From Agromyces aureus (GTDB lineage: Bacteria; Actinomycetota; Actinomycetes; Actinomycetales; Microbacteriaceae): a stretch of DNA of 64,000 nucleotides. Under the pieces are notes generated by a model that did not search any database, had not been told where the DNA came from, and saw only the letters and a list, made by a program, of their open reading frames with translations. The position numbers and the translations under genes were made by a program. Shown here piece by piece: positions 1,333-16,996 of this stretch. The DNA lies in NCBI RefSeq assembly GCF_001660485.1, contig NZ_CP013979.1, positions 1,674,001 through 1,738,000 of the forward strand, given 5' to 3'. The first letter of the stretch is position 1. Every line of letters starts with the position of its first letter.

Positions 1333-1424
1333 CTCAGCGCGCAGCGGGATCTGCTGCGACCAGCTCAGCGCACCGGGCATCGATTGCGAGCAACTCAGCG
1401 CACCTGCGGATCGGCTGCGACCAG
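1333..1424. repeat. three tandem 30-31 bp units at the 3' end of the phosphotransferase gene
   Basis: Three head-to-tail units lie at 1333-1363, 1364-1393 and 1394-1424. Each begins CTCAGCGC and ends close to GCTGCGACCAG (the middle unit is more diverged). On the minus strand every unit would encode a version of Leu-Val-Ala-Ala-Asp-Pro followed by TGA. The copy at 1394-1424 is the real end of the phosphotransferase gene and the other two lie downstream of its stop. This looks like local tandem duplication of a gene's last codons. Confidence 0.75.
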
Positions 1425-2654
1425 GTCGGCCGCTCGCGCCAGCCACGTCGCGGGGTCGTCGCGGTGGTACACCCGTTCGTCGGGCTCGATGCGATCGAGG
1501 AACCCTTGATAGATGACGGCCTGCCGCAGCGCGGCGACCGGCGCCAGCAGCAACGCCGCGCGCGCCGGATCCGAACCGGGCACCGCCGTGGCCCACGCAT
1601 CGGTCCAGTGCCGACGAGCGAGCTCGGCGTGCCCTGCGTCGACCCGGTCGGTGAAGGCGGCCGCGTCGAGCAGCGGATGCCCGACACCGGAGTCGCCCCA
1701 GTCGAGCAGGGTCAGGTCGAGCCCGCGGCCGCGCACGTTGCCTGGCGCGAAGTCGCCGTGCACGAGGGTGTCGGGCAGGCCGCACGCGACGACCCGGGCG
1801 GCGCGCACGTCGAGTCCGTCGACGAGTGCGCGCACGGATTCGCGCAGCGCGGGCTCGAGTCGGTCGGCGGCCGTCTCGAGCGCATGCGTCGCCGGGGCGG
1901 CGAGGGCCGGCATCCGCCAATCGGGCAGGCCGAGCGCGAGCAGGTCATCGACCGCGCCCGCCTGATCGAACTGGATACCGACGAGCAGGTCGATCATGGC
2001 GCGCTGCTGCTCGACCGTCGAGCCGTCGTGGAGGTCGTCGCCCGGGATGTCGGCCAGCAGCACGAGGCCGTCGTCCCGTGCGATCACGTGCGGCACCGGG
2101 TGACGGCGGTGCGGCTCGTCCCGCCCGAGCCGCTCGCGCCGTCCGAGCCGCTCGATGATCCCGCCCTCGTGCGCGAAGAACGGCGGCACCTGCTTGAGCC
2201 AGACATCGCCCCGGCCGGTCGGCAGGCGCCAGACACTCGAGAGGTTCCAGGTCCGCACCTGCTGGGCGGGCGCGGTGAGCGCGACGCCCCGCTCGGCGAG
2301 TTCGTGCGCGGCCCAGCGCAACGCACGGGTGGGGCCGCCGGGCTCGGCCCACGGCATGCGCAGCGGTACGGATGCCGCGACGCGCGCAGCGGCATCCGTC
2401 AGCCCGATTTGCGGCACGGCGTCGACCTCGGCGAGGTATCGCACGAGGTCGGGCACGCCGTCGGCGCGGCGCACGACCTCGAGCAGCCGCAGCACGATCA
2501 CCTCGAGTCCGAGCGATGCCCGGGCGGCGGTGACGACCTCGCTCGCGAGCATGGTCCACGGCTGCTCGGCCGAGAACCGCGCGGTCGTGCCCAGCACCTC
2601 GCCCGTCGGCAGGCAGAGCACGAGCTCGACCTCGCGCGTTCGCCCGTCGCCCAT
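1395..2654 (-). CDS. APH-family phosphotransferase with extra N-terminal region
   Basis: This 419-residue protein belongs to the aminoglycoside phosphotransferase/choline kinase-like superfamily. The Brenner motif is clear around residue 295 (LVHGDFAPGNV, catalytic Asp in HGD). The metal-binding DWGDSG follows about 20 residues later, then the helix with HPLLDAAAF. The first 120 or so residues lie outside the core kinase fold and I do not recognise them. The gene starts 9 bases after the stop of the fused anthranilate synthase and is probably co-transcribed with it, so it may fall under the same tryptophan attenuator. The substrate is unknown, and an antibiotic-resistance role should not be assumed. 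Confidence 0.75.
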   Translation of the reverse strand: MGDGRTREVELVLCLPTGEVLGTTARFSAEQPWTMLASEVVTAARASLGLEVIVLRLLEVVRRADGVPDLVRYLAEVDAVPQIGLTDAAARVAASVPLRMPWAEPGGPTRALRWAAHELAERGVALTAPAQQVRTWNLSSVWRLPTGRGDVWLKQVPPFFAHEGGIIERLGRRERLGRDEPHRRHPVPHVIARDDGLVLLADIPGDDLHDGSTVEQQRAMIDLLVGIQFDQAGAVDDLLALGLPDWRMPALAAPATHALETAADRLEPALRESVRALVDGLDVRAARVVACGLPDTLVHGDFAPGNVRGRGLDLTLLDWGDSGVGHPLLDAAAFTDRVDAGHAELARRHWTDAWATAVPGSDPARAALLLAPVAALRQAVIYQGFLDRIEPDERVYHRDDPATWLARAADLVAADPQVR

Positions 2655-2663
2655 GCCCGAAGG

Positions 2664-4664
2664 CTAGGGCACCACCGCCGTCGGTGTCAGCACGCCGTCG
2701 ACCAGTCGTTCGAGCAGCGCCAGGCCGTCGGGCGAGGTCACCGACTCGAGGTGCCCCTGAACGGAGGCCACGCCACGGCCGCGAAGGGCGTGCACGATGC
2801 CCGTCGCGGCATCCGAGGCCACCTCGAAGCCGAGGCGCGGCGTGGTCGAACCGTCGGACGCGAGCGCTGAGAACGTGTTGTAGAAGCCGATGGCCGCGGT
2901 CTCGCCGAACACCTCGATCGGCAGCTGCACGCCCTGGCGGGGCGTCGGCAGGGGCGCGACCGGCAGGCCCGCGAGGTCGGCGAGCACCTGGTGGCTGAGG
3001 CAGACGGCGAGCAGTGGGCGTTCGGCTTCGAGGCGTGCGGCGATGAGCTCGCGCAGGCGGGCGATGCGCGGGTCGGTCGCGTCGCGCGGGTCGCCTGGTC
3101 CGGGGCCGAACACCACGAGATCCTCGGATGCCGCAGCCGACGCCTGGTGCCACGCCACGAGCCGCACGTCGAGCCCGAGGTGGCGCAGCTGGTGCGCGAG
3201 CATCGTCGTGAAGTCGTCGTTCGCGTCGATCACGAGCGCCGAGCGTCCGCGCGGCTCGTGCGCGTGCTGCGGCGATCTCCAGAACGCGGCGAGGTGGTCG
3301 TTGCGGGCCGCGAGCAGCGCCGCGTGCGGGTCGGCGGCGGCGTGCTCATCACTCGGCGCCGTGCCCGAGGACGCATCGCGGCCTGCCCCCGACCGGGCGG
3401 CACCCGTCGCACCGGGCCGTGCCACGGCATCCGCCCGTGGAATCGCACCGAGCGCCGTGAGCAGGCCGGCCGCCTTCGCCCGCGTCTCGGCGACCTCGCC
3501 GGCGGGGTCGGAGTGGCGCACGAGCGTCGCCCCGACGGGCACGCTCACGCGTCCGTCGCGCAGGTACGCCGTGCGGATGAGGATCGGAGCGTCGACGTCG
3601 TACCCCGTCGCGGTCGGCGTGAACCGGGCGAAGACGCCCGCGTAGTAGCCGCGCGCGGTCGGCTCGTGCCTGGCGATGACCGAGCACGCGTTCCCCATCG
3701 GCGACCCGGTGACGGTCGGCGCGAACATTGTGCGGCGCAGCACCTCGCGCGGGTCGAGGTCGGAGTGCCCCTCGAGCAGGTACTCGGTGTGGGTGAGGCG
3801 CGACATCCGCTTCAGGAAGGGGCCCCGGATGCGCCCGCCCTCCGGGCACACCGCGCTCATCATCTTGAGTTCCTCGTCGACGACCATGACGAGCTCCTCG
3901 CGCTCCTTGACGTCGTGCAGGAACGCGAGCAGGCGTTCGTCGACCGAGGTCGCGGCATCGGCCTCGGTCAGCACGTCGTGGCGGAACGTGCCGCTGATCG
4001 GGTTCATCGACACGAGCCCGTCGATCGAGGAGACGTGCCGCTCGGGCGTCGCGCCGACCGCCGAGAGCCCCGGCGTGTGCACCGCGAAGGTCCAGAACGC
4101 GCCGCGCTCGTGCTCGAGCAGCGCCCGCAGCCAGCCGAGCACCGCGACCGCCGGCGCCCCGTCGACCTCGCCCACGAACTCACGGCGGATCACGAAGTTG
4201 GCGCCCTCGCCGCGCCCGATCTCGTCGTCGATCACGCGGCGCACGATCTCGGCATAGGCCTCGTCGCTGGCGTCCACGTCGAGGTCGACGGCGATCGGAT
4301 GCCGCGGCAGCACGTCGATCGCCTCCGCGACCGCGAGCTCGGCGCGCTCGCGCACCACCAGGCAGCGGATCGGCGCGCCGTCGTCGTGCGCGTCGAACCC
4401 GCGCTCGCGAACCTGCCGGAACGGCACGAGTGCGAGCACCTCCGCGCCGTCGAGCGGGATGTCGGCGAGAAGTTCGACGTCGACGACGTCGCCCACGAGC
4501 ACGTCGAGCGTGGGCTCGTGCTCGCGACGGATGACGGCGAACGGCGGGGCATCGGCGCCCGCGGCGAGCAGCGAGGCGAGCAGCGCGGACGGGGCGCTCG
4601 ACGGCGCCGCCGGCTGGCGCTCGGGCTGGGCGACGTTCGGGATGGCCGGGTGCGGTGCGGTCAT
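2664..4664 (-). CDS. fused anthranilate synthase (TrpE+TrpG), PhzE-like subfamily
   Basis: This 666-residue fusion joins a chorismate-using synthase (residues about 90-400) to a glutamine amidotransferase domain (about 480-660). The synthase half shows MNPISGTFRHD, VVDEELKMMSAVC and TVTGSPMGNACSV. The amidotransferase half shows FGPGPGDPRD, the nucleophile Cys near 555 in AVCLSHQ, and the His-Glu pair in QGHLES. The CLSHQ and QGHLES forms and the short N-terminus resemble PhzE/ADIC synthase rather than classical TrpE-TrpG, and the LLES feedback motif of TrpE is not seen. The start at 4664 has the site GGAGA 4 bases upstream. The Trp-codon leader upstream argues for a role in tryptophan synthesis. 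The product (anthranilate or aminodeoxyisochorismate) cannot be settled by reading. Confidence 0.85.
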   Translation of the reverse strand: MTAPHPAIPNVAQPERQPAAPSSAPSALLASLLAAGADAPPFAVIRREHEPTLDVLVGDVVDVELLADIPLDGAEVLALVPFRQVRERGFDAHDDGAPIRCLVVRERAELAVAEAIDVLPRHPIAVDLDVDASDEAYAEIVRRVIDDEIGRGEGANFVIRREFVGEVDGAPAVAVLGWLRALLEHERGAFWTFAVHTPGLSAVGATPERHVSSIDGLVSMNPISGTFRHDVLTEADAATSVDERLLAFLHDVKEREELVMVVDEELKMMSAVCPEGGRIRGPFLKRMSRLTHTEYLLEGHSDLDPREVLRRTMFAPTVTGSPMGNACSVIARHEPTARGYYAGVFARFTPTATGYDVDAPILIRTAYLRDGRVSVPVGATLVRHSDPAGEVAETRAKAAGLLTALGAIPRADAVARPGATGAARSGAGRDASSGTAPSDEHAAADPHAALLAARNDHLAAFWRSPQHAHEPRGRSALVIDANDDFTTMLAHQLRHLGLDVRLVAWHQASAAASEDLVVFGPGPGDPRDATDPRIARLRELIAARLEAERPLLAVCLSHQVLADLAGLPVAPLPTPRQGVQLPIEVFGETAAIGFYNTFSALASDGSTTPRLGFEVASDAATGIVHALRGRGVASVQGHLESVTSPDGLALLERLVDGVLTPTAVVP

Positions 4665-4713
4665 GAGTTCTCCGGTGGTCTTCTGGCCCGGGCCGGAACC
4701 TTCCGCAGATGCG

Positions 4714-4737
4714 AAAACGACCGCCCTCGGGCGGTCG
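4714..4737 (-). terminator. attenuator terminator hairpin of the Trp leader
   Basis: Read on the minus strand, a 9-bp GC-rich stem (CGACCGCCC with GGGCGGTCG, a very short loop) is followed directly by TTTT. It sits between the leader peptide and the fused anthranilate synthase, about 50 bases before its start codon. It forms segments 3 and 4 of a Trp-type attenuator. Confidence 0.85.
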
Positions 4738-4801
4738 TCGTACGTCGAAACGTGGAGTCCGCCTAGGAGGCGGGCCACCAGCTGCAGGTCGACGTGGTCA
4801 T
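4718..4801 (-). promoter_or_regulatory. tryptophan transcription attenuator
   Basis: Four alternating short segments are visible in the minus-strand RNA. Segment 1 is CCGCC at 4769-4773. Segment 2 is GGCGG at 4759-4763. Segment 3 is CCGCC at 4730-4734. Segment 4 is GGCGG at 4721-4725. Pairing 1:2 spans the two Trp codons and the leader stop and is extended by GTGG with CCAC. Pairing 2:3 would be the antiterminator, and 3:4 is the terminator. A ribosome stalled on the Trp codons would free segment 2 to pair with 3. The antiterminator is only 5 GC pairs by my reading, which is its weakest part. Confidence 0.85.
4763..4801 (-). CDS. trpL: Trp leader peptide
   Basis: This is a 12-codon open frame reading MTTSTCSWWPAS and then TAG. 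Two adjacent Trp codons (4775-4780) fall where the ribosome would have to stall to disrupt the first RNA hairpin. The tandem Trp pair in so short a peptide, followed by alternating hairpins and a terminator, is the established layout of trp attenuators. The leader ATG lies 7 bases after a TAACAT hexamer, so the message probably starts at the ATG. Confidence 0.88.
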   Translation of the reverse strand: MTTSTCSWWPAS

Positions 4802-4808
4802 GGGCTCG

Positions 4809-4814
4809 ATGTTA
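4809..4814 (-). promoter_or_regulatory. -10 hexamer for leaderless trpL transcript
   Basis: TAACAT lies 7 bases before the leader ATG, which puts the expected transcription start on the ATG itself. No good -35 is evident. It is divergent from the methyltransferase promoter 50 bases away. Confidence 0.6.
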
Positions 4815-4865
4815 GGGCATCCGCGCGATGCGTGCACCCTCGGTGCGTCGCGCGGCGCGCGCGGC

Positions 4866-4871
4866 TAGCAT
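4866..4871 (+). promoter_or_regulatory. -10 hexamer, leaderless start of the PrmC-related gene
   Basis: TAGCAT is followed by exactly 6 bases and then the GTG at 4878. There is no Shine-Dalgarno sequence. This is one of seven genes in the window with the same 6-base geometry. Confidence 0.6.
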
Positions 4872-4877
4872 TCCCGG

Positions 4878-5813
4878 GTGATCGATGCCGCCGCGCCCGC
4901 ACCCGAGCCCGACTCCGTGCTCGTCGCGCGACTGCGCGCCGCGGGCTGCGTGTTCGCCGAGGACGAGGCGGTGCTGCTCGAGGCCGCGGTCGCCGAGCGG
5001 TTCGGCGGTGGCGGCGATGTCGGTGCGCACGGCGGTGCCGATGATGCCGCGGCGGAGCTCGAGCGGCTGGTCGCCCGGCGCATGGCCGGCGAACCGCTCG
5101 AGCAACTCCTCGGCTGGGCGGAGTTCGGCGGCCTCCGCATCCTGCTCGAACCCGGCGTCTTCGTGCCGCGACGACGCACCGAGCTCCTCGCCGAGACGGC
5201 GTCGGGGTTCGCGGCGGAGGTCGCGGCATCCGGTCGAGTGCCCGTCGTCGTCGACCTCTGCTGCGGCGCGGGCGCGATCGGGGCCGTGATCGCGGATGCC
5301 GCTGGGCCGATCGAGCTGGTCGCGGCCGACCTCGACCCGGCCGCCGTGCGTGCCGCCCGGCGCAACCTCGAACCGCGCGGTGCGCGCGTCGTCGAGGGCG
5401 ACCTCTTCGCACCGCTGCCGGCCGACCTCCGCGGCCGTGTCGAAGTGCTCGCCGTGAACGCGCCCTACGTGCCCACCGATGAGATCGCGATGATGCCGCC
5501 CGAGGCGCGCGACCACGAGGCTCGCGTCGCACTCGACGGAGGAACCGACGGTCTCGACGTGCACCGGCGCGTCGCGGCATCCGCCCTCGACTGGCTCGCG
5601 CCCGACGGGCGACTGCTGATCGAGACCGGTCGGCGGCAGGCTGCGGCCACCGCAGCGCTCGTCGAGGCCGGTGGGCTCGCCGCCGAGGTCGCGCACGACG
5701 ACGAGCGCGGCGGCACGGTCGTCATCGGCACCGTCGGCCCCGCCGTCGACCGCCTCCGACTCACCGGTTCGCGGCGAGCAGTGCCTGCACCTCGGCATCC
5801 GTCGTCTGCGTGA
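4878..5813 (+). CDS. putative protein-(glutamine-N5) methyltransferase, PrmC-related
   Basis: This 311-residue protein resembles HemK/PrmC, the enzyme that methylates the GGQ glutamine of release factors. An N-terminal helical domain (about 1-95) precedes a SAM-binding Rossmann domain with VVDLCCGAGAIG near residue 120. The PrmC signature NPPY is NAPY here (about residue 194, NAPYVP). That fits the PrmC-related family of unknown substrate seen in actinobacteria (TIGR03704-type) rather than PrmC itself. The GTG start at 4878 is supported by the TAGCAT hexamer six bases upstream. The 3' end overlaps the convergent phosphoribosyltransferase gene by 53 bases. Confidence 0.82.
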   Translation: MIDAAAPAPEPDSVLVARLRAAGCVFAEDEAVLLEAAVAERFGGGGDVGAHGGADDAAAELERLVARRMAGEPLEQLLGWAEFGGLRILLEPGVFVPRRRTELLAETASGFAAEVAASGRVPVVVDLCCGAGAIGAVIADAAGPIELVAADLDPAAVRAARRNLEPRGARVVEGDLFAPLPADLRGRVEVLAVNAPYVPTDEIAMMPPEARDHEARVALDGGTDGLDVHRRVAASALDWLAPDGRLLIETGRRQAAATAALVEAGGLAAEVAHDDERGGTVVIGTVGPAVDRLRLTGSRRAVPAPRHPSSA

Positions 5814-16764: not shown

Positions 16765-16796
16765 ATCGGCGCACAATCACATACCGGGCCATCGAC

Positions 16797-16996
16797 GCAT
16801 CGCGGGAGAGCCGGAGACGTTCTGTTCACGCAGAGCCGGGCCGGCACCGAAGGAGCAAGCCTCCCCGCCAATCTCTCAGGTATCACACCGCGATGAACAC
16901 GGCCGCTCTGAAAAGTGGATGCCGCACGCTGCGGCGTCCCGCCCACGGTGAAAGCGCGAACGCGTGAAACTCTCAGGCTCATGACAGAGGGGGAGT
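16797..16996 (+). ncRNA. tandem glycine riboswitch (gcvT type)
   Basis: Two consecutive glycine aptamers can be read. The first runs from CGGGAGAG (16803) through CCGAAGGAGCAA to ATCTCTCAGG. The second runs from CTCTGAAAAG through CGGTGAAAGCG to AACTCTCAGG and the closing strand GACAGAGGGG near 16983-16992. These blocks and their order are the hallmarks of the gcvT motif RNA, which turns on glycine cleavage genes when glycine is high. The gcvT start follows 55 bases later. Confidence 0.93.

Follow-up and report, generated by a model that had tools for sequence, protein, structure and literature searches.

A putative leaderless tryptophan attenuator preceding a PhzE-like fused anthranilate synthase gene in Agromyces aureus

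Introduction

The closest described counterparts of the locus analysed here come from Streptomyces. The S. venezuelae anthranilate synthase SvTrpEG is described as highly similar to PhzE (PMC3111181), and the title of Ashenafi et al. (2008), cited in the same paper, presents SvTrpEG as an anthranilate synthase and not an ADIC synthase. For the trp attenuator of this organism, Lin et al. (1998) is cited in PMC1262725 and PMC4833913. In S. lividans TK24, the leader trpL1 (MFAHSTRNWWWTAHPAAH) lies with a terminator before the monocistronic trpE gene, and RNA-seq characterized it as leaderless (PMC8079986). Trp attenuators with UGG repeats, a GC-rich terminator and three complementary segments were predicted in Corynebacterium and Streptomyces by Seliverstov et al. 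(2005), whose predictions also include attenuators before trpS (PMC1262725).

The locus considered here lies in a 64,000-nucleotide stretch of the Agromyces aureus genome (hereafter the window). Its leader region very probably represents a classical, leaderless, ribosome-mediated trp attenuator that would control a PhzE-like fused anthranilate synthase feeding tryptophan synthesis. As in S. venezuelae trpL-trpE(G), a Trp attenuator stands before a fused PhzE-like anthranilate synthase; this comparison was made through S. narbonensis (L083) and Streptomyces sp. Root431 (L080), whose genes belong to the attenuated clade and carry 18-residue WWW leaders upstream. The S. lividans system likewise combines a leader peptide, leaderless there and predicted to be so in A. 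aureus, with a terminator and a single gene, but trpL1 has 18 residues and three Trp codons as against 12 and two in A. aureus, and its start was mapped by RNA-seq, whereas that of A. aureus is predicted. The features given by Seliverstov et al. (2005) recur as well; the conserved triple in A. aureus is GGCGG/CCGCC/GGCGG, and neither Agromyces nor Microbacterium is named in the available part of PMC1262725. The PhzE ADIC synthases of phenazine clusters share family and two-domain architecture with the A. aureus enzyme, which differs in not lying beside phzD or phzA/B, in having a trp leader, in its tree group and in Pro360 (phz-cluster copies compared: L184, L188, L190, L198, L200, L203).

The combination of the two elements is already known, because the S. 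venezuelae TrpEG is PhzE-like (PMC3111181) and an attenuator is reported for it (PMC1262725, PMC4833913). As far as these sources go, a trp attenuator on a PhzE-like enzyme gene is the known actinobacterial trpL-trpEG arrangement. The first-pass annotation of this DNA had treated a PhzE-type enzyme with a trp attenuator as unusual; the link to tryptophan was borne out, the unusualness was not. In the open-access literature, to which the search was mostly confined, no description of an attenuator-PhzE-like unit in Agromyces or Microbacterium was found.

Results

Leader region and synthase gene

The elements of the locus, all on the minus strand, are as follows.

4809..4814, minus strand: -10 promoter hexamer TAACAT, from the sequence, 7 nt upstream of the leader ATG
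4763..4801, minus strand: leader ORF of 12 codons, MTTSTCSWWPAS, with ATG at 4801 and TAG stop at 4765-4763
4789..4795, minus strand: outer 1:2 helix, 5' strand ACGTCGA (transcript nt 7-13), from the fold and partner-swap test
4775..4780, minus strand: tandem regulatory Trp codons TGG TGG, from the sequence
4769..4773, minus strand: segment 1, CCGCC, within the leader ORF, from sequence and fold
4759..4763, minus strand: segment 2, GGCGG, partner of 1 or 3, from the sequence and antiterminator pairing in the alignment
4742..4748, minus strand: outer 1:2 helix, 3' strand TCGACGT, from the fold and partner-swap test
4730..4734, minus strand: segment 3, CCGCC, partner of 2 (antiterminator) or 4 (terminator), from the alignment
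4721..4725, minus strand: segment 4, GGCGG, from terminator pairing in the alignment
4716..4739, minus strand: intrinsic terminator hairpin, -17.7 kcal/mol in isolation, with two covarying pairs
4714..4717, minus strand: TTTT 3' of the hairpin, its first T's able to pair
4670..4673, minus strand: GGAG, likely ribosome-binding site of the enzyme gene
2664..4664, minus strand: PhzE-like fused anthranilate synthase, 666 aa, with PF00425 (chorismate-binding) and PF00117 (glutamine amidotransferase)

The 12-residue leader with two adjacent Trp codons (read at 4780-4775), the promoter element (4814-4809), and the terminator with its TTTT (hairpin 4739-4716, TTTT 4717-4714) upstream of the fused synthase (ATG at 4664) had all been claimed from the sequence before, and each was found in place; the four alternating segments agreed base for base with their earlier positions. 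The terminator stem in the window is perfect and GC-rich, and TTTT comes after it. An outer helix was also recognized, in which the opening codons of the leader (4795-4789) pair with the stretch after its stop (4748-4742). No Rfam match was found at 4500-5000 at gathering score or at E ≤ 5, and assignment to a known Rfam family was rejected on that ground. Elsewhere in the window, a glycine riboswitch aptamer was recognized at 16793-16900 on the plus strand (58.9 bits against a gathering score of 32).

The mechanical ORF list places the enzyme start at 4778, and most protein analyses used 2664-4661, one codon short. The best PDB match of the enzyme was 3r74 (E 5.4e-137, residues 37-652), listed under anthranilate/para-aminobenzoate synthases component I and taken by us to be a PhzE; together with PF00425 and PF00117, this match gives the PhzE-type domain order. 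The TrpE-clade3 fused anthranilate synthase model TIGR01815 scored 125.8 bits, below its curated cut-off of 739.15, and no match to PF04715 was obtained at E ≤ 1. About 10 nt behind the synthase starts an ORF for an APH-like phosphotransferase (1395-2654, minus strand; PF01636, E 4.1e-7). Its co-regulation as a conserved feature was rejected, since a relative occurred in only 4 of 122 loci, many of them with short flanks (the own locus L085, L086, and L005 and L088, which are one record). In two genomes, G007 and G031 (L093 and L096), the match to the fused gene contains one in-frame TGA.

Conservation of the leader and covariation of the helices

The relatives named individually were the best 80 of at least 577 loci and therefore lean to close relatives; L020 and L050 have too little upstream sequence. 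A WW or WWW leader was present in 76 of the remaining 78 and absent from L079 and L082. A further 22 loci with the gene (L085-L106) include the own locus, L085, and five records already counted among the named loci (L088, L091, L096, L101 and L104); upstream sequence is present for 21 of the 22, of which 20 carry the leader and one, L103, does not. The leader is thus conserved across genera. The spacing between -10 box and start codon is 6 or 7 nt in 89 of 91 distinct leaders, compared with 4 of 4819 random upstream positions, and the gap of 7 nt in A. aureus falls within this pattern. The leaders contain two Trp codons (83/91) or three (8/91).

The alignment and the covariance model were built from 49 rows. 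TGG TGG is invariant in 49/49 of them, but the rows had been selected for TGGTGG; L064, L074, L060 and L024 were set aside before that selection, and L068 and L072 were dropped from the alignment. Terminator pairs are formed in 98.2% of cells across the 49 sequences, and two pairs covary, namely 101:134 (AU in 22 rows, CG in 18) and 103:132 (AU in 38, GC in 11). Antiterminator pairs are formed in 92.2% of cells. Within this helix, pair 61:103 occurs as UA (22 rows) and CG (9 rows) and is unpaired in 17 of 49, the A. aureus sequence included. Two antiterminator pairs are changed on both sides, a number reached in 24 of 500 shuffles, and 10 such cells were counted, a number reached in 0 of 500. 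Column 103 covaries with two partners, one in the terminator and one in the antiterminator, which is what two mutually exclusive helices would require.

The best-helix score of the outer helix was 18.5 in 65 nonredundant sequences, compared with 15.4 (sd 0.33, highest 16.2) when partners were swapped; the register was left free in this test, so that the rows need not all share one helix. The register of the inner 1:2 helix shifts between Agromyces and Microbacterium, and this helix was left out of the helix counts.

Folding of the nascent and complete RNA

When the nascent RNA was folded with a ribosome footprint on the Trp codons, the 2:3 hairpin was obtained (-11.7), whereas folding without a ribosome gave the 1:2 hairpin (-24.0). 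With the footprint reaching the stop region, neither the 1:2 nor the 2:3 hairpin formed. Free-energy folding of the full RNA gave the terminator in every state; the antiterminator must therefore act kinetically, as in known attenuators. Folding with and without a stalled footprint and comparison of leaders in related genomes had both been put forward in the first-pass annotation as checks, and both favour the attenuator: the fold changes with the footprint, and the Trp codons and terminator pairs are kept in relatives.

Occurrence in the genome, genus and class

In the 4.37-Mb genome the covariance model gave one significant match (E 1.4e-10; next 0.32). Since the model includes this very sequence, a fairer test is whether relatives conserve the leader. 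Within the genus the fused gene is accessory, being found in 19 of 37 genomes (the own one included), and the leader accompanies it in 19 of 19 cases. In the 18 same-genus genomes without the fused gene, the best model match had an E of 0.0027, and the three best were hairpins without a WW leader. For four neighbouring genes, the search of 122 loci turned up relatives in Agromyces alone, which indicates that the conserved unit is the leader plus the gene.

Across 394 genomes of the class, the model matched 135 at E ≤ 0.001 and a PhzE-like gene was found in 147 at E ≤ 1e-60. The two were compared using 150 listed matches of each kind. Of the RNA matches listed, 81 (in 81 genomes) precede a PhzE-like gene on the same strand and 69 do not; among these 81, the matched portion of the gene starts -14 to 316 nt after the end of the model. 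From each set of unpaired matches, 20 loci were fetched, hand-picked and not random. The 20 taken from the 69 unpaired RNA matches are followed by trpS (10), a TrpE-clade3 synthase (7) or trpD (3). Nineteen of these genes were identified by HMM and that of L166 by reading the ORF; two trpD frames and one trpS frame were taken from ORF lists. A leader holding Trp codons was read in 18 of the 20, and none was read by the script in L162 and L170. In each of these 20 loci, out of the 69 listed, the gene behind the attenuator RNA thus serves tryptophan, which bears on the A. aureus gene indirectly.

Several of these placements can be listed in their own right. An attenuator before trpD was seen in three genomes of the class (L159, L160, L161), and one before a TrpE-clade3 synthase in L162, L164-L166, L168, L175 and L177. 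Genomes G205 and G414 have an attenuator before a TrpE-clade3 synthase together with a PhzE-like gene that has no adjacent listed model match.

In the opposite direction, no model match adjoins 69 of the 150 listed PhzE-like matches. The 20 fetched comprised 8 with a tandem-Trp leader and a -10 box, 7 linked to phzD and without a leader, and 5 with neither. A direct search of these loci brings six of the 8 leaders to E ≤ 0.003.

Discussion

Proposed mode of action

The anatomy of the locus, the conservation and covariation of its helices and its association with one gene agree with a classical attenuator, a reading which the first-pass annotation had drawn from family knowledge and which the tandem-Trp leader, the terminator, the mutually exclusive antiterminator and the Trp-supply genes behind the RNA elsewhere (20 of the 20 examined) uphold. 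Transcription probably starts at or beside the A of the leader ATG. When charged tRNA-Trp is ample, the ribosome would clear both Trp codons, reach the stop and cover segment 2, so that the 3:4 terminator would form and the enzyme gene would stay untranscribed. When Trp is scarce, the ribosome is predicted to stall at the Trp codons with segment 1 covered; 2:3 pairing would then be established before segment 4 is made, allowing read-through into the enzyme gene. With no ribosome present, the 1:2 hairpin and the helix tying up the start of the leaderless ORF may leave the terminator free. The start site, the stalling and the response to Trp are what we infer for this locus.

The mode of termination could differ from this scheme: the leader would be functional, with transcripts ending mainly through Rho or with part of the control exerted at translation, and the hairpin would be no more than an aid. 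The U-tracts are short, and in some relatives, such as L065, L067 and L068, short or broken. Of 97 leader-bearing rows, 24 gave no hit with a simple terminator finder, which also picked a different hairpin in L034, L045 and L078; the misses are partly due to long loops or one mismatched base, and they imply that the U-tract or stem is imperfect in some relatives. Other actinobacterial leaders are also reported without clear terminators (PMC1262725, PMC8079986). In the window itself, however, the stem is perfect and GC-rich with TTTT after it, and covariation maintains the terminator pairs. Moreover, the distance from the model to the gene, which varies from -14 to 316 nt among the relatives listed, argues against sequestering of the gene's own ribosome site. 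Rho-dependent or translational control is considered unlikely, and intrinsic termination within a ribosome-mediated attenuator is preferred.

Tryptophan or phenazine enzyme

The enzyme might instead be a true PhzE, that is, an ADIC synthase for phenazine or another secondary metabolite, with the attenuator tying that pathway to aromatic amino acid status. Its closest structure, 3r74, is taken to be a PhzE, and 14 of 120 listed relatives bear the name "phenazine biosynthesis protein phzE" and one that of a phenazine-specific anthranilate synthase. The genomic context speaks against this. No PHZA_PHZB match was found in the A. aureus genome, none over 150 bits occurred in the 81 attenuated genomes, and phzD, phzF, phzG and phzA/B gave no match in loci L005-L106 (the own L085 included; flanks at most 3 kb). 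On the absence of phz genes from the loci searched and of PHZA_PHZB from the genome, the phenazine reading was rejected.

The genes linked to phzD form a different set. A tandem-Trp leader was found in 0 of 13 of them (7 fetched and 6 plasmid-borne, the latter with phzD annotated or matched), and upstream of these 13 genes no model match was obtained at E ≤ 0.5; L184, L198 and L204 have weak matches elsewhere. A quick tree built from 52 proteins explains the attenuator label with 4 changes, compared with 15.5 when shuffled. One branch (SH-aLRT 93, not starred) holds all 32 labelled attenuated rows, those of A. aureus and Streptomyces among them, as well as L079, L103, L192 and L194, which have no WW leader and are apparently leader losses; 0 of 13 phzD-linked rows fall in it, although support along the deep backbone is weak and the branches leading to L200, L196, L201 and L079 are long. 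The tree does not include L185, whose frame is broken, or L181, which duplicates the record of L082, and L105 was unlabelled. Residue 360 is Pro in 31 of 32 attenuated proteins and in 0 of 13 phzD-linked ones (11 Ala, 2 Ser); the canonical TrpE has A at this position, so that residue 360 is not an anthranilate-synthase residue. One genome, G145, holds both types, L189 with a leader and a separate phz-cluster copy, L190, without, which counts against a strict split at the level of genomes.

The S. venezuelae TrpEG, reported as an anthranilate synthase and not an ADIC synthase in the title cited in PMC3111181, provides a precedent for a tryptophan role. A true PhzE is accordingly held to be very unlikely. 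The earlier link of this PhzE-type enzyme to tryptophan supply receives support from clade, gene context, regulon and the S. venezuelae precedent (PMC3111181), and anthranilate is the product we infer. In L071, L074, L081, L182, L186 and L189 the attenuated synthase has a gene for DAHP synthase next to it (39-42% identity to the query), an adjacency that fits a chorismate-to-Trp role.

A chance meeting of an ordinary short ORF with the terminator of a neighbouring gene has a negligible probability and was rejected: hairpins are common in GC-rich DNA, as the three best weak matches in genus-mates illustrate, but 0 such leader ORFs were found in 5.12 Mb of second-order Markov sequence, and conservation over genera and covariation stand against it as well. 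In the window, on both strands, the arrangement of a -10 box (TAnnnT) at 6 or 7 nt and a short TGGTGG ORF occurs at a single place, and a hairpin with T's follows. Applied to 652,008 bases of real sequence, made up of both strands of loci L179 and above, the same search gave 8 places, every one a leader before a PhzE-like gene.

Canonical TrpE and division of labour

The genome also encodes a canonical TrpE (L115:4778-6304), which scores above the curated cut-off and has both PF04715 and an LLES motif. PF04715 is presumably the Trp-binding N-terminal domain for feedback. No model match below E 0.1 was found in the canonical trpE, pabB and isochorismate synthase stretches. LLES is absent from the first 140 residues of 54 of 54 PhzE-like rows (one a fragment); its use as a marker of feedback control was dropped, as the one TrpE-clade3 protein tried was not matched by a similar pattern either.

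A TrpE with a feedback domain and no attenuator, alongside an attenuated enzyme without PF04715, makes a division of labour plausible, in which one enzyme would be controlled by feedback and the other by attenuation. More tentatively, and at somewhat less than even probability, the attenuator and the PhzE-like gene may be one travelling accessory cassette, supplying a starvation-induced second anthranilate synthase without the Trp-binding N-terminal domain, so that the isozymes would split RNA sensing and enzyme feedback between them.

What is new here is the distribution of the unit, a means of marking 'phzE' genes that have been misnamed, and the finding that the canonical trpE has no attenuator. 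The leader offers a simple mark separating likely tryptophan-supply enzymes from phenazine enzymes, and the two copies in G145 (L189 and L190) form a natural side-by-side comparison of leader-bearing and phz-cluster genes. The leader also predicts which of the two anthranilate synthases in a cell would answer Trp starvation. The few studied Streptomyces cases are thereby widened to a likely class-wide regulon of PhzE-like TrpEG, TrpE-clade3, trpD and trpS.
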